A stretch of DNA of 37,397 nt from Acidobacteriota bacterium (GTDB taxonomy: Bacteria; Acidobacteriota; Terriglobia; UBA7540), in contig QHZN01000084.1 of NCBI GenBank assembly GCA_003225365.1, forward strand, positions 1-37,397, in the 5' to 3' direction. A program made the translations under genes and the position numbers. The notes under the pieces were generated by a model. It worked only from the letters and a program-made list of their open reading frames with translations, was not told the DNA's origin and made no database searches. Below are positions 6,263 to 30,852 of the stretch, piece after piece (the first letter of the stretch is position 1; every line of letters begins with the position of its first letter).

Positions 6263-8779
6263 TTATTGCGGCTCGAGGGTAAGCCGGTGCACGGCGCCTT
6301 GCTCGACGGCCTGGGGGCTGAAGAGCATCGGGAAGCTCGTGCCGTGATACCAAGCTTCGAATTGGTCTTTGTAATGAGGACTCAGGAAATTGCCGGCCTC
6401 CCCGAGCGTAAGGTTTTGGACGGAATGGTCGAAATCGGAGAAATCCACAACCATGCGCATGGAGGGCCCATGGCCGGCAGTCGTGGCCTTGATGGTGTTG
6501 GCGGTCCCGGCCTGGGGAAACGGTCCGATGTCGAGAAACCTTGACAGGAAAGGAAGCCGCCCGGAAATGCGGTTGCGAAACGTGAGGCGAATCGTATCCC
6601 CCCACTTCCAGGCGGCGTGGTCGGGCGAGCCCACCAGGCCCGAGATGCGCGCGACGGCCTCCTCGAGGCTTTTCATGAGCGTCATGTTGAAATCCGCGTC
6701 CCCGGGTGGCAGCCACCGCGCCCAGCGATTCTTGAGCACGTTCTGGAGAAAACCCGTGCTCAAGCCCCAATGATAATTCGGAGCATCTGCGCCGAGCTTC
6801 GGCCCGAGGACGCGCTGGAGGAGAGCCTGGCGCGTGAGCTCGAGGACGAGCGTGGCGCCGGAATCCGCGCGCGCTTCACCGTCCCATGCCCGAACAAGCG
6901 CGAGGGCATATTGCGCGTCGGCGCTTACGGGCGGCGAAGCCTGGGCGGCGCCCACGAGCTCCTTGGCCAGCCACTGGTCGTCGAGCGGAGCAATGTCCAT
7001 CTGAATGCGCAGCATGTCGCGAACTTCGAATTCGCGGCCCGACTCGAGCAGTTGAAAGATTCGCGCGGTGCGAAAAGGCGGCGCCCACTCATGCGTGATG
7101 AAAAACCGGTAGCCGTCCGGAACCACCCGCCCGTTCGCCGTGGCGATGAGGCCGCTCGGCGGATTGAACGCGTGCGGGAGGTCTTCGAAGGGCACGTAGC
7201 CGGTCCAATCGTAGTCGTCCGAATCGCCGGGCTCCGGCACGCTCCCCTCCCCCTGCTTGCGGAGAGGAATCCAGCCCGCGGCGTAATAGCCGATGTTGCC
7301 GTCCATGTCCGCGTAGACGACGTTCTGCATCGGGCCGGAATAGTCCCGGAGGGCTTCGGTAAAACCCTGCCAGTTCGCGGCCCGATCGAGCTTCAAGAGC
7401 ATGAATCGGAGCGAATGCGGCTCGAGCGCCGTCCACTCGAGGGCCAGTTCGCGGTGCTGGTCGCCTGATATCACCGGCCCGTGCCGCGTAGTCTTGACCG
7501 TCAAGTGGAAGTCCGGCCCGTCACGTACATGGATGATTTCCTCGCGGACCTCGGCGTTTTCCCACTGACCGTTGTGCAGGTACTGGTTCGCGTTCGCGGG
7601 ATTGAAATGCTCGATGAAGAGGTCGGCGACGTCGGGGCCGGTGTTGGTCATGCCCCAGGCAATTCGCTCGTTATGCCCGATCACCACGAGCGGCAGGCCG
7701 GGAAAAGTGGCGCCGGCAACGCTGAGCCCCGGCGCAACCAAGTGCGCCATGTACCAAATGCTCGGCACGGAATGGCCCAGATGCGGGTCGTTGGCGAGCA
7801 GCGGTTTGCGCGAGCGAGTGTGCGCGCCGCTCACTACCCAGTTGTTGCTGCCGAGACCCGATCGTGCCGTGGGCACAGCATCGAGAAATCCCTCCGCTTC
7901 GCCTTCCGGAAATCCGATGTTAAGGAGGGGCGGTCGAAGACCCTGCCGAAGGCCCTGAGCCGAGTCGAAGGGAGCGCGGCCGAAGGGCGGAGCGAGCAAC
8001 TCTCTGGCATTGGGCGGCGACGGACCGAAAGTTGAGCGGTTCGAAGATGGCGTTGTGGCCCGCGATGGCTCGGCGACCGGATGGTCGAGGTCCGAATGGT
8101 CGGGAAGAAGGTCAGCGTAAAGCTCGGGGCTAATCTTCGCCTTCAAGCGCTCTCGCATCAAGTCCTCCGGCCACGATGTTCCGAGGTTCCTCGCCATATT
8201 TAAAGCGACCTGAAGCGAGTCAGCTTCTTCCCACGGGCGGGGCTTGATGCCGAGCAGGGCAAATTCGATGGGCAGGCGGTCATGGTGCGAAGCGATGTAG
8301 GCGTTGACCCCGCGCGCGTAGGCGGCGAAGACGGTGCCCGACTCCGGGTCGAGCTCGGCAACCGCGCGCTCAACGGCTTGGCGGGACCCGAGCCGACGGG
8401 TTTCGATATCCACGTCGAGCGCCGCGCGCCCAACGATTTCGGAAAGCTCTCCGCGCCCCAGACGCCGGCTGAATTCCATCTGCCAGAGGCGGTCTGAAGC
8501 GGTGACGTAGCCTTGAGCCATGGCCGCATCTTCAAGCGACTTTGCGTAGATGTGCGGCACTCCGCGCGCGTCGCGCAGGATTTCCACCGGCGCTGCGAGG
8601 CCCGCCACGCCCAGACTGCCGTCGAGCTCGGGGAGATTGGCTCTCTCCTTCCAGTAAAACCACGTCCCCGCTCCCCCTGCCGTGACGAGGGTGAGAATGA
8701 TCAAAACCCCAAAGGCGCGAACAGCTTTGCGGGCGGTTTGCGGGCGTGGAGTTCGGACTTCGCTGACCACGCTGGCCAT
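6263..8779 (-). CDS. penicillin acylase family (Ntn-hydrolase) protein
   Basis: An 838-residue precursor of the S45 penicillin acylase/acyl-homoserine-lactone acylase superfamily. An N-terminal membrane or signal segment (FGVLIILTLVTAGGAGTWFYW) is followed by PVEILRDARGVPHIYAKSLE and DRLWQMEFSRRLGRGELSEI, typical of the alpha chain. The autoprocessing nucleophile is the Ser of GLGSNNWVVSG (about Ser311), followed by PLLANDPHLGHSVPSIWY of the beta chain. The linker before the nucleophile carries a palindromic repeat translated as PFDSAQGLRQGLRPP (bases about 7938-7975), which would probably be tolerated because this linker is normally removed. The substrate cannot be inferred; these enzymes hydrolyse amides of beta-lactams, AHLs or related compounds. 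No convincing ribosome site precedes the ATG at 8779. Confidence 0.9.
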   Translation of the reverse strand: MASVVSEVRTPRPQTARKAVRAFGVLIILTLVTAGGAGTWFYWKERANLPELDGSLGVAGLAAPVEILRDARGVPHIYAKSLEDAAMAQGYVTASDRLWQMEFSRRLGRGELSEIVGRAALDVDIETRRLGSRQAVERAVAELDPESGTVFAAYARGVNAYIASHHDRLPIEFALLGIKPRPWEEADSLQVALNMARNLGTSWPEDLMRERLKAKISPELYADLLPDHSDLDHPVAEPSRATTPSSNRSTFGPSPPNARELLAPPFGRAPFDSAQGLRQGLRPPLLNIGFPEGEAEGFLDAVPTARSGLGSNNWVVSGAHTRSRKPLLANDPHLGHSVPSIWYMAHLVAPGLSVAGATFPGLPLVVIGHNERIAWGMTNTGPDVADLFIEHFNPANANQYLHNGQWENAEVREEIIHVRDGPDFHLTVKTTRHGPVISGDQHRELALEWTALEPHSLRFMLLKLDRAANWQGFTEALRDYSGPMQNVVYADMDGNIGYYAAGWIPLRKQGEGSVPEPGDSDDYDWTGYVPFEDLPHAFNPPSGLIATANGRVVPDGYRFFITHEWAPPFRTARIFQLLESGREFEVRDMLRIQMDIAPLDDQWLAKELVGAAQASPPVSADAQYALALVRAWDGEARADSGATLVLELTRQALLQRVLGPKLGADAPNYHWGLSTGFLQNVLKNRWARWLPPGDADFNMTLMKSLEEAVARISGLVGSPDHAAWKWGDTIRLTFRNRISGRLPFLSRFLDIGPFPQAGTANTIKATTAGHGPSMRMVVDFSDFDHSVQNLTLGEAGNFLSPHYKDQFEAWYHGTSFPMLFSPQAVEQGAVHRLTLEPQ
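7938..7975. repeat. intragenic palindromic repeat, copy in penicillin acylase gene
   Basis: The core CCCTGAGCCGAGTCGAAGGG (7953-7972) is a copy of the dispersed palindrome CCCTTCGACT-N2-GCTCAGG. A partial second copy (ccctgccgaagg) lies just upstream. It is in frame on the minus strand and encodes FDSAQGL in the linker ahead of the catalytic serine. Confidence 0.8.
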
Positions 8780-12552: not shown

Positions 12553-12613
12553 TTATGCCCGCCCTTCGGCAGGCTCAGGGTCCTGAGCGAAGTCGAAGGA
12601 CGAAAGCGGGCAT
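12553..12613. repeat. palindromic repeat, possible terminator region
   Basis: Outer arms atgcccgc and gcgggcat enclose CCTTCGGCAGGCTCAGG and CCTGAGCGAAGTCGAAGG, two facing copies of the dispersed palindrome family. The block lies 17 bases after the phosphatase stop and before the M20 peptidase start. It could fold as a long hairpin or cruciform, but no T-run follows, so a Rho-independent terminator role is uncertain. Confidence 0.65.
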
Positions 12614-12666
12614 CCAGACAGAAGTTTGGCCGTCATGGCCGCGAGGGCCAACTTTCAGCGAAAAAG

Positions 12667-13860
12667 ATGATCGAGCGTTCGAGAATCGAAAGCCTCCTCG
12701 CCGACCTAGTGAGGATTGAGTCCATCAATCCCGACCTCGTGGAGGGGGGAAGCGGCGAGGGGGAAATCGCCCGCCTCGTCGCCGACTTCTTATCGCGAGC
12801 GGGGCTCGAATCCTCTTGCCGGGGAATCGGGCCCGCCAGCCGCGCGAAGCCTAGCCCTGAGCGAAGTCGAAGGGCGAGCCGCGCCAACGCGGTGGGAATT
12901 CTCAAAGGCAGCGGGGGCGGGCGGAGCCTGATGTTCAACGGGCATCTCGACACGGTGGGTGTGGCCGGGATGGCGGAACCTTTTTCGGGGCGCGTCGAAG
13001 GAGGGCGGCTTTACGGCCGCGGCTCCCAAGACATGAAAGGGGGCGTCGCCGCCGCGCTCCTGGCGGTAGAGGCCCTGGCGCGTGGCGCGCGCTTAAAAGG
13101 CGACGTCGTTTTCGCGGGCGTCGCCGACGAGGAATACGAAAGCAAGGGAACGCGCGCGCTCCTCAAAGAGTTCCGCACCGATGCCGCAGTGGTCATGGAG
13201 CCGACCGGGTTGGAAGTGGTCACTGCGCACAAAGGCTTCGTGTGGGCGGAAGTCCGCACCCTGGGCCGCGCCGCGCACGGCAGCCGCCCCGAAGAAGGCT
13301 TGGACGCTATCGCATTCATGGGGCGCGTGCTGGGCGGAATTGAGCGCCTGGAAAATGAGCTGGCCAGGCGGCGTCATCCCTCGCTCGGCGGCGGCTCCGT
13401 CCACGCCTCCACGATTTCTGGCGGCCAGGAGTTCTCAAGCTATCCGGCGGAGTGCAAATTGAGGGTCGAACGCCGCCTCCTGCCCGGAGAGAACTCTCAA
13501 ACCTTCGAGCGCGAGCTTCAGCAGATTCTCTCCGAGCTTTCGGCAGCGGACGAGGCTTTTCGAGTCAAGCTCGAAATAGGCTATTCGGCGCTGGCTTTGG
13601 AAACGCCTCCCGCGACGAGCATCGTGCGGGCATTGATGGCTTCCGCCGAGAAGGTTCTCGGCCCCGAGGTGAGGCTCGGCGCACAAAGCTTTTGGACGGA
13701 TGCCGCCCTTCTGAGCGAGGCGGGAATTCCAAGCGTTCTGTTCGGCCCCGGGGGCGAGGGGCTTCATTCTGCCGAAGAATATGTTTTGGTTGAGCAGGTC
13801 GCCCAATGCGCCGAGGTCTTGGCAGAATGCGCCCGCGAGTTTTGCAATGCAAGGGCTTGA
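12667..13860 (+). CDS. M20-family metallopeptidase (ArgE/DapE/CPG2-like)
   Basis: A 397-residue cytoplasmic zinc amidohydrolase. Metal and catalytic motifs in order: FNGHLDTVG (first His and Asp), RGSQDMKGGVAAAL (bridging Asp), GVADEEYESKGT (catalytic and metal Glu), VMEPTGLEV, and GPGGEGLHSAEEYV (final His). A central dimerisation domain begins near AHKGFVWAEVRTLGRAAHGS. The exact substrate, an acyl-amino acid, succinyl-diaminopimelate or dipeptide, cannot be set. A palindromic repeat at 12854-12875 is inserted in frame near residues 60-72 (AKPSPERSRRASRAN), between the first helical segment and the first metal-binding strand. All metal ligands are retained, so the enzyme may still be active. 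It stands alone between repeat-containing gaps. Confidence 0.88.
   Translation: MIERSRIESLLADLVRIESINPDLVEGGSGEGEIARLVADFLSRAGLESSCRGIGPASRAKPSPERSRRASRANAVGILKGSGGGRSLMFNGHLDTVGVAGMAEPFSGRVEGGRLYGRGSQDMKGGVAAALLAVEALARGARLKGDVVFAGVADEEYESKGTRALLKEFRTDAAVVMEPTGLEVVTAHKGFVWAEVRTLGRAAHGSRPEEGLDAIAFMGRVLGGIERLENELARRRHPSLGGGSVHASTISGGQEFSSYPAECKLRVERRLLPGENSQTFERELQQILSELSAADEAFRVKLEIGYSALALETPPATSIVRALMASAEKVLGPEVRLGAQSFWTDAALLSEAGIPSVLFGPGGEGLHSAEEYVLVEQVAQCAEVLAECAREFCNARA
12854..12875. repeat. intragenic palindromic repeat in M20 peptidase
   Basis: A near-perfect copy of the dispersed palindrome (GCCCTGAGCGAAGTCGAAGG plus gc) lies in frame and encodes SPERSRRA in a surface region before the first metal-binding motif. 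Confidence 0.85.
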
Positions 13861-14266: not shown

Positions 14267-14887
14267 ATGATGAAAAGAGAGTCCGGATATTCTATGGTCG
14301 AGCTGCTCGTGGTTATCCTCATTCTTGGGATTGTTGTCGCCTTTGCGATACCTTCGGCCTCGACCGCCATCCGTGATTACAGGCTTCACTCCGACGCTAA
14401 TGTGGTGGCTGGCCAATTGAACGTAGCTCGAATGAGAGCCGCCTCCCAATACGCTCCCTACCGTGTGGTGGTTAACATCGCCGCGGGAACATACTGGATG
14501 GAAAAGCTTTGCGGTTTGACGACCAGCACCGCCGATCCATCTTGCACTACTTCGTACATGCCTCGCTCGGTCCCCGAAGCCCAAATCGAGGGAGGGACGC
14601 AATACGTGGGGACCAATGACGCATATTCAAGTTGTCGGCCGTCCGGGGTGACCGCATATCCCGGCTCAATTCAGGCGGATCTCAGCCCTTGCCCGGACCC
14701 TCTCTACATTTACTTTAATACGAGGGGATCTCCAGTGGACAGCACGGGCAATCCCCTGGGAAACGGCGGCGCCGTTCTTTATATCAAAAACACGAACGCC
14801 ATGGCGGACGCGGTCACGGTCTCCGTCGGCGGAAACGTTACCCGATATCAGTGGAGCAAGGCAAGTTCGACGTGGAAGGCCCGGTAG
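14267..14887 (+). CDS. GspH/FimT-type minor pilin
   Basis: A 206-residue prepilin. The leader MMKRESG is followed by the cleavage context G^YSMVELLVV with Glu at +5, then a hydrophobic helix (LLVVILILGIVVAFAIPSAS) and the typical FimT/GspH continuation AIRDYRLHSDANVVAGQLN and ARMRAASQ. It would be cleaved by PilD-type prepilin peptidase and placed in the tip or priming complex of a type IV pilus. The start is the ATG at 14267, with GGGAGG nine bases upstream; the ATG three bases later is equally usable and a GTG at 14240 would give an overlong leader. Unlike the next three genes its leader carries no repeat. It is first in a four-gene pilin operon. The C-terminal globular part contains several cysteines. 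Confidence 0.88.
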   Translation: MMKRESGYSMVELLVVILILGIVVAFAIPSASTAIRDYRLHSDANVVAGQLNVARMRAASQYAPYRVVVNIAAGTYWMEKLCGLTTSTADPSCTTSYMPRSVPEAQIEGGTQYVGTNDAYSSCRPSGVTAYPGSIQADLSPCPDPLYIYFNTRGSPVDSTGNPLGNGGAVLYIKNTNAMADAVTVSVGGNVTRYQWSKASSTWKAR

Positions 14888-14965
14888 GGCATGCGACGCC
14901 GTCGGCGCGGCCCGGGTGGATGGCGAGGCCCTGCACCATACGATACAGCGCAAAGGAGGGACCCC

Positions 14966-15586
14966 ATGAGGAAATTGATCCACGTCGAAGACACTGAGCG
15001 AAGCCGAAGTGAGGCTCATGGCGTGAGCCTGATCGAGACCATGATCGCGGTATTCATTGCCCTCATCGGTGTTTTCAGCCTCGGACAGGTGGTCTTCCTT
15101 TCGATGGTTCAGGACAAGAACCAGGGGTCGGAGGTAACGCGCGCCACCATCTACGCCCAGGATAAGATGGAAAAGCTCCTGTCGCTCGACTTCACGAGTT
15201 GCACTCTGGCCGCGGCCTCTCAGCCTGCCACGTGTAACACCACCAACATCAGCGCCAGCGGTTGGACGCAGGGGTTGCTCCAGGGCGGAGCGACGGGCCC
15301 GCCGCTCGTAGCCAGTTGTCCGACAACGGGAGCCTCCATCGGGTACATGGATTACCTGGACCCCAACGGGATTCAAGTGCCTGGAGCCACGCCAGCGACG
15401 TCTTGCTCCGCGATCGCGTCGAATCCGGTGGCTTACATCCGAATGTGGCAAGTAACGGACTTGGCCTCGACCGGGGGGCCCGCCATCAAGAAGATTGCCG
15501 TGTCGGTCTATGCTCAAAGCGCGGTCAGCGCTCCCGGAGGCAAACCCATCGTTCAAGTGACCAGCTATTTATCTAACCCGAATTAG
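14966..15586 (+). CDS. pilV: PilV-type minor pilin with repeat-bearing leader
   Basis: A 206-residue prepilin with the PilV signature G^VSLIETMIAVFIALIGVFSL, Glu at +5, followed by QDKNQGSEVTRATIYAQDKM, where PilV proteins have A-x-x-LAQxxME. The strong ribosome site AAGGAGG precedes the ATG at 14966. The leader is 19 residues and includes EDTERSRSEAHG, encoded by a half-palindrome (14992-15013) of the dispersed repeat family, immediately before the cleavage glycine. The rest is a globular domain with several cysteines. It follows the fimT-like gene by 78 bases and precedes pilW by 15. Family assignment is good; whether the altered leader is still processed is unknown. Confidence 0.85.
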   Translation: MRKLIHVEDTERSRSEAHGVSLIETMIAVFIALIGVFSLGQVVFLSMVQDKNQGSEVTRATIYAQDKMEKLLSLDFTSCTLAAASQPATCNTTNISASGWTQGLLQGGATGPPLVASCPTTGASIGYMDYLDPNGIQVPGATPATSCSAIASNPVAYIRMWQVTDLASTGGPAIKKIAVSVYAQSAVSAPGGKPIVQVTSYLSNPN

Positions 15587-15601
15587 CGGAGGGGAGCCGA
15601 C

Positions 15602-16816
15602 ATGCGAGCAGCTACAACTCAACCCGGCGCGTCAGGTCGAGGTAGGAATACGGTCGTTCCCGCGAAAGCGGGAAACCAGGGCGGCAAGCAGTGGATCTCC
15701 GCCCCTCGGCAGGCTCAGGGCAGGCTTTCCGCGGGGACGACAAGAACCGCCCTTCGACTTCGCTTAGGGTCTTCGACATTCGGAGCGGGGTATTCTCTCC
15801 TGGAGCTGTTGATCAGCGTGGCGATCATCCTCCTCCTGATGTCGGCGGTCTTTCCATTCATTGCCCAATCGCAGAAAACCTTTCAGGGCAATCAGGTGAC
15901 GGCGGAAGCGAACCAGAGCGCCCGCGCGGCGCTGGAGGTCATTTCCCAGGAAATCGGACAAGCGGGTTACAACTCAAACTTCAACAACAATCGCACCTCT
16001 TCCGCCAACGTGACTGCTTCGGCGTCCGCTCAATGCATCACCCTGAATAACATTAACAAGATTAATGCGGGCGACTGGCTGTACGTGGATACGGGACCAA
16101 ACGAGGAGCTTGTCCAGGTTCTCTCCACCTCTGCGATTCCGAGCAGTCCGTGCTCCGCTTCAAATAACGTTCAGGCCGTCTTCTCCTTTAATCACACGGG
16201 CGCCACCACCGCTTTCCCGCTCATCAGCTACAAGATGCCCTACGGGGTAGGCATTATCCAAGGGTCAGGGACCTCGACCGACCAGCGGCTGGAATTTTTC
16301 GGCGACCTCAATCAGGACGGCGTGATTCGATACGTCGTTTACAGCTTGAACCCCGTCAGTCCCGCCTCCACGGTGACCATCAACGGCACGGTGTATACGC
16401 TCTACAACCTGTACCGCTCGATAACGCCGGTGACGTACGCGAACCTTCCTCCTTCCGGAACGATAACGCCTTCCGTGAACAACCCCGCGTCGGTATTGGT
16501 CTCGAACGTTCTTTACAACATCGCGAATGCCAGCGGGCCGACCGGTCAGCCGATTTTCGCCTATCCCAATGAAGTCACGATTGGCGTGGTGCCGAACGTC
16601 ATCACGGTGGTCGGAACCATCGTGATCACGATCAGCGTGGATGTCGTACCGTTGAATCTCGCGACCGGCCAAGTGCAGTGGGCCACCATGGCGACCCAGA
16701 TTCGTCCGATAAACCTGGCGGCCGCCATTGCGGTGAACTATGCTGGAGGGGCCATCTACCTCCCGCCTTTGCCCAAGACCCTGCCCATGACCAATCCGAC
16801 GAATTACTATCAATAA
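15602..16816 (+). CDS. pilW: PilW-type minor pilin with a 63-residue repeat-derived leader
   Basis: A 404-residue protein. The prepilin helix G^YSLLELLISVAIILLL, with Glu at +5, begins only after 63 residues, far beyond the usual 6-25. The only in-frame ATG, GTG or TTG ahead of the cleavage site is the ATG at 15602, behind GGAGGGG. The long leader is built of repeats: an inverted element from about 15653 to 15742 (gtcgttcccgcg paired with cgcggggacgac), a GC palindrome nested in it, and a third copy (CCCTTCGACTTCGCTTAGGG) at about 15750. After the helix comes NQVTAEANQSARAALEVISQ and then EIGQAGYN, as in PilW. The remainder is beta-rich and Asn/Thr/Ser-rich. It is third in the pilin operon. 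Confidence 0.85.
   Translation: MRAATTQPGASGRGRNTVVPAKAGNQGGKQWISAPRQAQGRLSAGTTRTALRLRLGSSTFGAGYSLLELLISVAIILLLMSAVFPFIAQSQKTFQGNQVTAEANQSARAALEVISQEIGQAGYNSNFNNNRTSSANVTASASAQCITLNNINKINAGDWLYVDTGPNEELVQVLSTSAIPSSPCSASNNVQAVFSFNHTGATTAFPLISYKMPYGVGIIQGSGTSTDQRLEFFGDLNQDGVIRYVVYSLNPVSPASTVTINGTVYTLYNLYRSITPVTYANLPPSGTITPSVNNPASVLVSNVLYNIANASGPTGQPIFAYPNEVTIGVVPNVITVVGTIVITISVDVVPLNLATGQVQWATMATQIRPINLAAAIAVNYAGGAIYLPPLPKTLPMTNPTNYYQ
15653..15779. repeat. nested palindromic repeats within the pilW leader
   Basis: The arms at about 15653-15664 and 15731-15742 form an inverted repeat with one wobble. A small hairpin ttcccgc-gaaa-gcgggaa lies at 15657-15674. A second element (cctcggcaggctcagggcaggc) sits between the arms, and a copy of CCCTTCGACTTCGCTTAGGG follows. 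The whole block is translated in frame. Confidence 0.8.
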
Positions 16817-16828
16817 GGAGCGGCCGAT

Positions 16829-18604
16829 ATGACCAACCGAAAAGCAGACCGAACGAAACGGCAACCCTTCGACCCTTCGACTGCGCTCAGGGCCTTCGGC
16901 TGCGCTCAGGGCCTTGGGCCTGGCAGAAGGGAGGAGGGAGTGGCTCTGATTCTGGTCTTGCTCGCCATGTTGGTGATGAGCGCATTGGCGGCGGCGATTG
17001 TTTATACGGCTCGAGCGGAAACCTTCGCCAGCAACAACTATAAACTGGAGACAGAAGCGGACTACCTGGCCAAGGCAGGAATCCAGCGTGCCGTCAACTG
17101 GTTCCGCAGCAACCACTACCAGACAGTTCAGCAGGCGCAGGCCAGCACTTATTATGCTGTGACTTCCACGGGCACGCCCTACAACCTTTACACTTCCAAC
17201 AACTCGCCCGTGAACTGCGCCTCGGGCTGTTCTTCATCGAATTCGGCCGTGCAGTTTATTGGATACGGGTCGGGGTCCACAAATTTCCCGAGTATCTCCA
17301 ACACGGCAAGCCCTTCGACCGCCGTGACCTCGGCGTTCGCGTCGGATTTGGTGAATGTTCCGGTGACGGCTTCAAATGGAAACAATCTGGGATCTTTTTC
17401 GATTCGGGCGACGTTGATCAATTATCAGACGGTGGGTTTGGGCACGGACCCTCCCTACACGATAGTTCCAGTGGAAACCTGGTCGGTGACGTCTCTCGGC
17501 ACCTACACGGGAGGACAAGGATTAACCTTGGCCACGGCCGAGGAGTCAGCAATCGTTCAGCCGGTATTCATACCAACATGGGGGAACGCCCTTTATGGCT
17601 TTTGCGGGGTCACCATGACCGGCAGTGCGGGGACCTGCACCGATGCCTTCAATTCAGCTTTCGGCGCTTACGGCGGCGGCAGCAACGCGACCGCCGCGGG
17701 CGCGTGCGATTCGACGACGGCGACTAACGTCATCGCCGCCGGCGCCAACGTTGGCGCCAACGGCGGCGTGACACTCGGCTCGAACGTCACGGTGGCCGGG
17801 AACGTCGTCATCGGCAGCGGCTCGACCTCGGGTTGTACCGCCAACGGGTACAGCGGGAGCACCACCTCGGTTAGAGGCCAAGTGATTAACGGGCCGCATA
17901 AATCAGCGCCTCCGGCGCCTTCGTTTCGCTCGGGTTTCCCCGGCACCTCGCCGAGCTACCCGCTGGGGGTGGGCGACGTGCTGACGTTGCCGGTTAACGG
18001 GACTTGGTCTAACACCCCTTTCCCCGAAACCGGTGGTCTCCCAAGTCCGCCAACCAACTCCCCCACCTGCATGAATAACGACGGCACATGCAACGGTACG
18101 TCGGCGCATCCTTACGAAATCAGCAGCATTTCCATGACCGGCGGCGGCAATGGCCCCAATTCGCCGATTCTTAAATTTGTGGGCAGCAACAATCCAGCAG
18201 CCCCGATTTATTACGACATCGACAGCTTGTCGCAGAACCAGGGTCAGATCAACGTTTCGGGCTACGTCGTTCTGAACATTCAATCCGGGCTCAGCATCGG
18301 GGGTCTGGGAGTCTCAAACGGCATCAGCAACGACATTCCTCCCGAGTACCTGGAGATGAACTACGCAGGAACCTCGGCGGTGAGCATTAACGGCAACGGA
18401 GCGGTTTCAGCCGTGATCAACGCGCCGAATGCAAGTGTAGACTTGGGGGGCGGCGGGAGCGGCGGGTACTTCGTCGGTGCAATCCAGGCCAATAACGTCA
18501 GCGTCGTGGGGGGCTACCCTGTTCATTATGACCTCCAACTCTCGCGCATGGGGGGATTGTTGGGCGTTATCACCACCACCGCTTTCTCGCGGCAAAAAAT
18601 GTAG
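16829..18604 (+). CDS. PilX-like pilus assembly protein with repeat-bearing leader
   Basis: A 591-residue protein whose N-terminus matches PilX proteins: REEG^VALILVLLAMLVMSAL, a hydrophobic helix, then AEADYLAKAG-like text (ETEADYLAKAGIQRAVNWF). It lacks Glu at +5, as PilX members often do. The leader is 37 residues and contains two tandem copies of the dispersed palindrome (16866-16925), read as PSTALRAFGCAQGLGPG. The start ATG at 16829 has AAGGAG nine bases upstream, 12 bases after the pilW stop. The rest is low-complexity Gly/Asn/Ser/Thr-rich with regular GSNVTVAGNVVIG-like strands, compatible with a beta-solenoid, and ends without a second membrane segment. It closes the pilin operon; no PilY1 adhesin gene follows. 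Confidence 0.75.
   Translation: MTNRKADRTKRQPFDPSTALRAFGCAQGLGPGRREEGVALILVLLAMLVMSALAAAIVYTARAETFASNNYKLETEADYLAKAGIQRAVNWFRSNHYQTVQQAQASTYYAVTSTGTPYNLYTSNNSPVNCASGCSSSNSAVQFIGYGSGSTNFPSISNTASPSTAVTSAFASDLVNVPVTASNGNNLGSFSIRATLINYQTVGLGTDPPYTIVPVETWSVTSLGTYTGGQGLTLATAEESAIVQPVFIPTWGNALYGFCGVTMTGSAGTCTDAFNSAFGAYGGGSNATAAGACDSTTATNVIAAGANVGANGGVTLGSNVTVAGNVVIGSGSTSGCTANGYSGSTTSVRGQVINGPHKSAPPAPSFRSGFPGTSPSYPLGVGDVLTLPVNGTWSNTPFPETGGLPSPPTNSPTCMNNDGTCNGTSAHPYEISSISMTGGGNGPNSPILKFVGSNNPAAPIYYDIDSLSQNQGQINVSGYVVLNIQSGLSIGGLGVSNGISNDIPPEYLEMNYAGTSAVSINGNGAVSAVINAPNASVDLGGGGSGGYFVGAIQANNVSVVGGYPVHYDLQLSRMGGLLGVITTTAFSRQKM
16866..16925. repeat. tandem palindromic repeats within the pilX-like leader
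   Basis: The unit CCTTCGACTGCGCTCAGGG is followed at once by CCTTCGGCTGCGCTCAGGG and a partial third start. Both are copies of the dispersed palindrome seen in other genes here. They lie between the start codon and the prepilin cleavage region and keep the reading frame. Confidence 0.85.
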
Positions 18605-20934: not shown

Positions 20935-21181
20935 CCTGCGCGAAAGTACCTGATCAATTCTGTCGAAACAAAAGACTGGAACCCGCTCCTCGAGGTTCGC
21001 TTGATTTGGCCCGGAGGGCCAGTCAATGTGTGCGAGCCTCAGGACGGACACGAATTCGGCAAGATGAGACTGAGGCGCGGGAAGGAGAGTCAACTTCAAC
21101 ACCGGCGAGTTTTGAATGGATCAGTCCAAAGGAATCTCCGAAAGATGGTCGCCCAAGTGTCGGAGGGCATTTTAGAAGGGC
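20935..21181. other. gap after the cyclase gene
   Basis: Nothing I can name. A short hairpin tggcccggagggcca (near 21008) is the only structure seen. Confidence 0.4.
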
Positions 21182-21432
21182 GATGAAGAATTGCCCCCAC
21201 TGTCATGCCGAGCCCATTCGCTTGTCATTCTGACCCCGATGCAGTGAACCGGGGGAAGAATCCCCTTCATTTCGCGCTCAGGGTAAACTGCGCGAAGCAT
21301 CTCGCACTGCTTTAAAATCAACAACATAGATTCTTCGCGGAGTTTACTCTGAGCGGAACTGCTGAGATGCTTCGCTCCGCTCAGCATGACAAGAGAAGGG
21401 CTCAGAATGACAACGTAAGACAATTCTTCATC
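21182..21432. mobile_element. non-autonomous inverted-repeat element, copy A
   Basis: Perfect 12-bp ends: gatgaagaattg (21182-21193) and caattcttcatc (21421-21432). Inside are nested inverted arms (TGTCATGCCGAGC with gctcagcatgaca; gtcattctga with tcagaatgac) and an inner pair gctcagggtaaact (21276-21289) and agtttactctgagc (21341-21354, one mismatch). No coding capacity. A related copy lies at 30295-30464. The layout is that of a MITE or large hairpin repeat; no transposase is present. Confidence 0.65.
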
Positions 21433-21534
21433 AGCCTCCTAGACGGCTGGAAAGATCCAGCCATGATGCCTATTTGTCACGCAATCAAGGTCCACCCGCA
21501 GCAGGCTCGCCGGGACTTCCGGGAGGGCGTCACC

Positions 21535-29930: not shown

Positions 29931-30060
29931 AAAAAATTTCGGTAGTGGGTCAGTTTGCTGTAGCGGCGCTCTATGAGCGCCGAAGATGCCGTCGAATCAA
30001 CACCGGCGGTCATAGACCGCCGCTACAGAAACTCAAATTGACCCACTACGAAAATTTCCG
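29931..30060. mobile_element. MITE-like palindromic element
   Basis: A long imperfect inverted repeat: aaatttcggtagtgggtcag near the left end faces gacccactacgaaaattt at the right. Inside, ctgtagcggcg and cgccgctacag pair over 11 bases, and each arm carries its own small hairpin (cggcgctc-tat-gagcgccg and cggcggtc-ata-gaccgccg). About 130 bases, no coding capacity. It lies upstream of secA on the divergent side. Confidence 0.75.
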
Positions 30061-30114
30061 AGGGGTTGCATCGAAGGGGGCGAGTGTGGAAAATAGTCGC
30101 GAGGAATTCCTTTC

Positions 30115-30270
30115 ATGATGGCTTTCTTGTGCGGGGGGACCGAGTACGCACCCGAGGGCGGGCGCGCTTGGCGGAGCCGGCTACGCGCCTGGCTCGAGGA
30201 GAACCTGAACCATCACGTTTACGACTCCACGCTCGAAGCCAGACGGGGGCTCCGCAGAGCGGGGCGAAGG
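30115..30270 (+). pseudogene. truncated N-terminal fragment of an unidentified protein
   Basis: A short frame starting MMAFLCGGTEYAPEGGRAWR continues with LRAWLEENLNHHVYDSTLEA and then loses protein-like character where repeat-derived sequence begins (the frame stays open to 30429 but reads repeat). The start resembles the opening of nucleoside-2-deoxyribosyltransferase-like proteins (a Gly-Gly strand, then a helix with W-x-x-x-L), but the piece is too short to name. It seems to be the surviving 5' end of a gene whose remainder was replaced by element copy B. It could also be a chance frame. Confidence 0.35.
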
Positions 30271-30294
30271 GGGATCGGATTAAAACCGCCGAGC

Positions 30295-30464
30295 TGTCAT
30301 GCTGAGCCCGTTGGCCATTCCGCTGCGAACGGCCCTGAGCACAGCGAAGGGGCTCAGGGTAAACTTCGCGAAGCATCGCTGTATTACCTTGAAAATAAAT
30401 TCCGGGGTCCTTCGAGGAGTTTACCCTGAGCGAAGCCGAAGGGCTCAGGACGACAAACGGAGGG
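30295..30464. mobile_element. non-autonomous inverted-repeat element, copy B
   Basis: Starts TGTCATGCTGAGCCCGTT, nearly as copy A. It holds the perfect inverted pair gctcagggtaaact (30352-30365) and agtttaccctgagc (30418-30431), plus copies of the CCTTCGNNTTCGCTCAGG palindrome (about 30340 and 30428-30450). The inner arm spacing is 79-80 bases in both copies. It ends a few bases before the ribosome site of the next gene. Confidence 0.65.
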
Positions 30465-30468
30465 GACG

Positions 30469-30852
30469 ATGAAGACAGCGGGCGCAATACTAGGTCTGGT
30501 GCTGGCGCTGGCGGCCGGCTACTTCGTTTTTAAGTATGAGTTCAGTCAAGGTCCCGCGGGCACGGCCTCTCCCAAAGTAGCGATCGACGTCACCGGCGTG
30601 AAAAGCGATTTGCTGACGATCGGCCAGGCCGAGCGCGCCTACATGGTGAGCAAGGGCAGCTACGGCTCGCTCGACCAGCTCCAGCAGGACGGCGACCTAA
30701 CTTTCTCCGGCGGCGACCGCCGCGGCTACCACTACGACGCCACGGCCGATGACGGGACGCACTTCAAAATCACCGCCACACCCTCCGACCCCGCTAAACA
30801 GGGATGGCCGACGCTGAGCATTGACGAGACCATGCAGATCCAACAGCAATGA
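30469..30852 (+). CDS. small membrane-anchored pilin-like protein
   Basis: A 127-residue protein: one N-terminal helix (MKTAGAILGLVLALAAGYFVFKY), a short linker, then LLTIGQAERAYMVSKGSYGS, LDQLQQDGDL and a compact C-terminal domain ending IDETMQIQQQ. The segment TIGQAERAYMVSKGSYGSL resembles the first globular part of type IV pilins and pseudopilins, which read as T-x-x-A-x-x-x-Y-x-x-x-x-G-x-(Y/F). There is no prepilin cleavage motif, so it would remain anchored. The ATG at 30469 follows a GGAGGGG site. The TGA stop overlaps the first base of the heptad array at 30852. Function unknown; it may be a lipid-exposed pilus-related or scaffold protein. Confidence 0.65.
   Translation: MKTAGAILGLVLALAAGYFVFKYEFSQGPAGTASPKVAIDVTGVKSDLLTIGQAERAYMVSKGSYGSLDQLQQDGDLTFSGGDRRGYHYDATADDGTHFKITATPSDPAKQGWPTLSIDETMQIQQQ

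Follow-up and report, generated by a model that had tools for sequence, protein, structure and literature searches.

In-frame palindromic repeats in the leaders of three minor prepilins of a soil acidobacterium

In a 37,397-nucleotide stretch of an acidobacterial genome (contig QHZN01000084.1 of assembly GCA_003225365.1; hereafter the window), three consecutive genes of a minor-pilin operon carry dispersed palindromic repeats between the start codon and the glycine at which the prepilin leader is cleaved. One of these repeats, class B (CCTTCGRCTNNGCTCAGGGYCTTCGRC), a 27-base imperfect palindrome, occurs in the pilV, pilW and pilX-like leaders alike. Prepilin leaders vary in length, are cytoplasmic and are cleaved on the cytoplasmic side (PMC10191384). 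We consider it likely that selfish palindromes resembling repetitive extragenic palindromic (REP) sequences landed in frame in these three cleaved leaders and have persisted there, where the leader is nearly unconstrained. The host, a soil acidobacterium, is represented by a 5.16-Mb draft metagenome-assembled genome (MAG) in 421 contigs, 91.7% complete; the genomes closest to it are Acidobacteria MAGs, and the nearest of these is a gp13 soil genome. Genome statistics given below come from pattern searches together with fetched stretches totalling about 0.56 Mb, a large number of which were selected for containing a repeat.

The four-gene operon (14267-18604) encodes fimT/GspH-like, pilV-like, pilW-like and PilX/GspK-like minor pilins, with tight gaps of 15 and 12 bases on either side of pilW. 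Several of the family assignments score under curated cut-offs (Table 1). The host genes pass the type IV prepilin test, with a leader-terminal glycine followed by about 20 hydrophobic residues, and the pilX-like product lacks Glu5, as PilX/GspK proteins do. Each repeat-bearing leader has one plausible start, an ATG with a good Shine-Dalgarno sequence: at 14966 in pilV (AAAGGAGG; leader MRKLIHVEDTERSRSEAHG, 19 residues), at 15602 in pilW (GGAGGGGAG; leader MRAATTQ...GSSTFGAG, 63 residues) and at 16829 in the pilX-like gene (AAGGAG; leader MTNRKAD...GRREEG, 37 residues). From the repeat to the cleavage glycine, none of the three genes contains an ATG, GTG or TTG. Since a prepilin needs its leader and glycine, and no later canonical start is available, the repeat codons must be read if the prepilin is made.

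A first-pass annotation of the window, based on its letters alone, had described palindromes at 14992-16925 in leaders of these same lengths, an unaffected first pilin gene and intact mature helices. Pattern searches and start inspection bore out the three leaders; the interval begins inside the pilV leader, the gene itself starting at 14966. The leader of the first gene (14267) gave no repeat matches in the genome sample, as had been proposed, and the repeats end before the mature helix, which is intact. The description of a single dispersed palindrome was right in that class B is present in all three leaders, but three types of palindrome are found in the pilW leader: class B, a two-unit CGTC-type palindrome, and a third palindrome nested in the second CGTC-type unit.

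These repeats are dispersed through the genome. Class B occurs at about 40 genome places at up to 2 mismatches, compared with 0 for a reversed control at up to 3 mismatches, and its 21-base core has 178 genome copies against 1 in the control. The copy in the pilV leader has 9 matches elsewhere in the genome sample. When 100-base pieces of all 37 kb were compared with about 0.5 Mb of sequence from this genome, only 8 repeat spots emerged, 3 intergenic and 5 genic, the latter being the penicillin amidase gene, the M20 peptidase gene and the three pilin leaders, which together make up about 0.36 kb of the 37-kb window; the spots were counted post hoc and the three leader events may be dependent, so that no formal probability is attached to this count. 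No tile lying wholly within a mature pilin was flagged as repeat. The intergenic stretches at 21151-21500 and 29951-30500 of the window are built of dispersed repeats common to many contigs. REP-like palindromes also turn up repeatedly in a loop belonging to one arm of another palindrome, CGTC-type or otherwise, both in the window (15692-15741 and 12580-12640) and at seven further loci (L158, L163, L164, L168, L172, L084 and L087), which suggests that hairpin loops are insertion targets.

We compared orthologous leaders across related genomes (19 for pilV and pilW and 17 for pilX, the host counted in). Median leader lengths are 9 residues for pilV, 18 for pilW and 19 for pilX; the host pilW leader is the longest among 19 genomes, and the host's pilV and pilX leaders each run to roughly double their respective medians. 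Because orthologous leaders in relatives are short, the expansion is derived. In the sister species (genome G001), the pilV leader has 11 residues and no repeat, while CCCTGGTCTCCCCGTCAGCCGACGGGGACCAGAGGG and GGGTCCCCGCTTCCGCGGGG, palindromes of other kinds found repeatedly in the sister genome, both lie in the 62-residue pilX leader. Its pilW leader probably also holds a palindrome differing from the host's. There (locus L120; locus L049 has identical operon values), the ATG preceded by a Shine-Dalgarno sequence is not in frame with the pilin, lying 88 bases from the cleavage region, and the sole in-frame start is a TTG past a palindrome, a conflict that would reflect a frameshift, a sequencing error or a genuine late start.

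Long leaders arose elsewhere too: in genus g6 and genome G014, the leader of pilV or pilX reaches 36-67 residues (loci L125, L126, L007 and L131). A repeat origin was rejected for the pilX leaders of G006 and G014, whose leader DNA is single-copy in its own genome and contains no repeat. Such long single-copy leaders in other lineages indicate that a leader can lengthen freely whether or not repeats are involved, and across orthologues lengths spread from 7 to 67 residues with no common sequence. Long repeat-free leaders in relatives had been named beforehand as potential counter-evidence; they do exist, only as non-homologous sequences, and they count against a role for the repeats, not against tolerance of them. 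The class-B repeat is abundant only in the host genus and in scattered outsiders.

Class B is not peculiar to pilin genes. In the fetched stretches, 30 of 38 copies lie within open frames of at least 120 codons, 22 of these with coding-type codon usage, and the in-frame hosts include IleRS, LysRS, GlnE, AcrB, NuoC/D, Lnt, LptE and glycosyltransferases, among others. The site in IleRS is a linker preceding the zinc finger, that in Lnt is N-terminal, and that in a double glycosyltransferase falls between its two domains. Among 15 scorable hosts, class B lies inside a Pfam domain in 5, where domain coverage predicts 9.1 (P 0.014); the penicillin amidase of the window is an additional inside-domain case outside this count. 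Coding frames hold 58% of class-B copies, 28% of copies of the related class A and 17% of CGTC-type copies, compared with 74% of random positions. Class B is thus mildly depleted from genes, and class A and the CGTC-type strongly depleted; the idea that genes hold more class B than background was rejected, as class B is only less depleted than its relatives. Five of the six class-B frames are free of stops, compared with 3-4 for class A, and for this reason class B can be read through.

LysRS (L145:1269-3050) and IleRS (L138:2303-4999, minus strand) both contain in-frame class B, the LysRS copy within the catalytic-domain match. In an LptE homologue (L151:1067-1705, minus strand), the charged stretch directly before the lipoprotein signal AVLISAFCFLASSC consists of the class-B peptide VADPEPGRR, and a YfhO-like membrane protein (L149, about 2592) carries a tandem pair of class-B variants, VEDTERSRSVEDAERSRS, of the variant that matches the pilV leader's.

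Table 1. Pilin genes, leaders and palindromes of the window, with two in-frame class-B copies for comparison
Feature	Position	Strand	Basis or reading
fimT/GspH-like minor pilin, first gene of the operon	14267..14887	+	PF07963 8.9e-7; leader MMKRESG
pilV-like minor pilin	14966..15586	+	TIGR02523 7.4e-5, under curated cut-off; orthologues in relatives
pilV prepilin leader, 19 codons with cleavage Gly	14966..15022	+	Start inspection, orthologue comparison
Class-B palindrome ACTTCGGCTTCGCTCAGTGTCTTCGAC, inverted, pilV leader	14984..15010	-	2 differences; + strand reads VEDTERSRS
pilW-like minor pilin	15602..16816	+	PF07963 0.003, under cut-off; TIGR02532 17.3 bits, above its cut-off
pilW prepilin leader, 63 codons with cleavage Gly	15602..15790	+	Start inspection, orthologue comparison
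CGTC-type palindrome GGTCGTTCCCGCGAAAGCGGGAAACCAG, first unit, pilW leader	15652..15679	+	Perfect stem; 0 mismatches to pattern with 36 genome places
CGTC-type second, inverted unit TGGATCTCCGC ... TTTCCGCGGGGACGAC, pilW leader	15692..15741	+	Compared with intact and nested copies
Third palindrome CCCTCGGCAGGCTCAGGGCAGG, nested in second CGTC-type unit, pilW leader	~15703-15725	n/a	Comparison with intact and nested copies
Class-B palindrome, pilW leader	15751..15777	+	Pattern search; reads LRLRLGSST
PilX/GspK-like minor pilin	16829..18604	+	PF14341 E 0.013, GspK model 2.5e-5, both under cut-off
pilX prepilin leader, 37 codons with cleavage Gly	16829..16939	+	Start inspection, orthologue comparison
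Class-B palindrome, pilX leader	16874..16900	+	0 mismatches; reads PSTALRAFG
Second class-B copy, pilX leader, overlapping the first (19-nt period)	16893..16919	+	1 mismatch; reads FGCAQGLGP
In-frame class-B palindrome within the penicillin-amidase gene (6263-8779, minus), for comparison	7945..7971	-	Pattern search
Class-B core in frame in M20 peptidase gene (12667-13860), comparison case	12854..12874	-	Core search, domain search

Together these observations argue for the leader as a tolerated landing zone, the first of two ideas offered by the first-pass annotation: relative to orthologues the repeats are additions, they are translated, and they stay outside the mature helix; the sister species has different palindromes at the same kind of place; and class B also sits at termini and linkers of many other proteins. 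Selfish palindromes would insert widely through the genome, presumably by transposition or a template-switch process, and copies landing in essential domains would be lost while those in discarded leaders, termini and linkers would be kept. Selection would accordingly have purged copies that landed in mature domains. Prepilin peptidase would cut the leader off after its last glycine, leaving the mature pilin unaltered, and the repeat-bearing leaders should still be cleaved normally. The palindromes would persist in leaders because there is almost no constraint on how long a leader is or what it encodes.

Three results weigh against this account. Three insertions in one operon are more clustered than independent landing predicts. 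Neither the other prepilins scanned in the host genome nor prepilin leaders in the REP-rich genomes G042 and G060 were found to carry such repeats, and prepilin leaders as a general repeat hotspot were rejected in this sample; since other scanned prepilins contain none, the clustering calls for a local history (spreading, or chance with tolerance), not a general preference. Finally, none of the 12 Y1_Tnp loci examined is flanked by the repeat, and no mobilising enzyme is linked to it. A single insertion into the operon followed by local spread, through gene conversion, slippage or short-range transposition, would be compatible with tolerated landing and would differ only in the route of copying. 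Class-B copies are clustered on other contigs too (four on contig C354 and two each on C116, C108 and C82), and pilX has an overlapping tandem pair. Local spread is nonetheless doubtful, as the pilV copy is inverted and of another sequence variant, and, among the matches listed in the genome sample with the pilin region masked, the best for each leader copy lie on other contigs.

The second idea, that long leaders tune export or processing, finds no support. In its fuller form, the repeat-coded leaders would slow or redirect membrane targeting, or set the processing of the tip minor pilins against that of the first pilin; the three genes are expected to act in small, balanced amounts, the long leaders of genus g6 and G014 arose separately, and major pilins of Streptococcus sanguinis have very long leaders (PMC10191384). 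We regard such a function as very unlikely, since orthologue lengths follow no pattern and share nothing in sequence, the long leaders tested in other lineages lack repeats, and RNA folding is unremarkable. The inserted peptides moreover differ by gene and species, being set by the reading phase of the repeat, and identical repeat peptides are found in cytosolic enzymes. It is likewise unlikely, though somewhat less so, that the palindromes are RNA or DNA elements of gene junctions, acting in mRNA stability, attenuation or differential expression and pushed into the leaders by tight gene spacing. Every copy does fall in the first 190 bases of its gene, directly past the junction, the pilW and pilX leaders have predicted hairpins, and REPs are mostly intergenic and transcribed (PMC3733652). 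The folding energies, however, are no better than those of shuffles (z 0.12, -0.62, -1.21 and -1.36), and regulation by RNA structure was rejected for lack of any folding signal in the leader regions; the repeat region is translated, equivalent junctions in the sister species hold other repeats or none, and class B shows no preference for gene junctions genome-wide. Mis-called starts would make the repeats truly extragenic, with translation beginning past them. Di Nocera et al. caution that intragenic REPs near protein N-termini are in many cases annotation errors (PMC3733652), and the out-of-frame ATG and in-frame TTG of the sister pilW would fit. In the window, the absence of a canonical start between the repeats and the cleavage glycine removes that objection, downstream starts were rejected on the same ground, and each ATG in use follows a strong Shine-Dalgarno sequence, making this explanation highly improbable. 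We give next to no credence to an artefact of assembly or binning: the genome is fragmented and repeats are weak points of assembly, but all three frames stay open across the repeats, operon order is as in relatives, and the copies differ among themselves.

In-frame palindromes of this general kind are known from Rickettsia palindromic elements, several families of which lie in frame in unrelated genes and are read as extra peptides (PMC10969869). Class B shares their traits as a dispersed, many-copy family with a palindromic core that occurs in frame in unrelated conserved genes. The likeness is one of description: the Rickettsia elements are about 150 bp, whereas this acidobacterium has units of about 27 bp, with dimers of about 50-90, and, unlike them, three fall in cleaved leaders of one operon. 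The CGTC-type palindrome in the pilW leader resembles the CGTC-tagged REPs of Di Nocera et al. (2013). Its family has the form ATTCCCGC-GAAA-GCGGGAAT-CCA, often with an inverted partner, reproducing the 8-bp stem, 4-base loop, CCA tail and head-to-head dimers of those elements, whose stems run to 8-9 bp from an initial A-T and whose loops span 4-5 bases, and both lack a linked transposase and include some intragenic copies. Across 29 copies the tag, which in CGTC REPs is CGTC or else TGTC or CCTC, reads CGTC in 8, TGTC in 8, GGTC in 10 and AGTC in 3; the pilW copy differs from a CGTC REP in that GGTC replaces CGTC and its second unit is broken. GTAG REPs and REPINs, mobilised by REP-associated tyrosine transposases (RAYT, or TnpA-REP), resemble class B in being imperfect palindromes of small size scattered through the genome, some of them inside genes. 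REPs of both the GTAG and the CGTC kind occur within genes in many phyla (PMC3733652). The host genome contains Y1_Tnp genes. The aligned class-B copies have no GTAG tag, however, and RAYT mobilisation of class B was rejected because no examined Y1_Tnp gene, one of the host's two included, is flanked by it; that one host copy has other palindromes nearby. A Y1 transposase gene on contig C113 (L118:1-700) lies beside different palindromes, of the CCATGGCTTACGCCATGG type, possibly its own cognate repeats. Type IVb prepilins and those of S. sanguinis also have leaders far beyond the usual few residues (PMC10191384), but in those families long leaders are a shared trait, whereas here the leader is built of dispersed repeats absent from orthologues. 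A literature search confined to open-access papers turned up no account of repeats within prepilin leaders.

By way of a tentative and rather doubtful extension, cleaved export leaders in general (prepilin leaders, and lipoprotein or Sec n-regions as in LptE) might form a safe harbour that several unrelated palindrome families of the genus have colonised independently, with the stop-free class B adapted to reading frames. In-frame palindromes are in themselves of a kind already known, and their presence in the leaders is largely understandable as the survival of repeats where they are harmless. The operon also serves as a warning for gene calling and prepilin prediction: a leader of at least 60 residues can be real. 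With the genic repeats of a 37-kb window lying mainly in discarded leaders, and none in the mature pilins, it offers a natural experiment on which regions of a protein tolerate random insertion.

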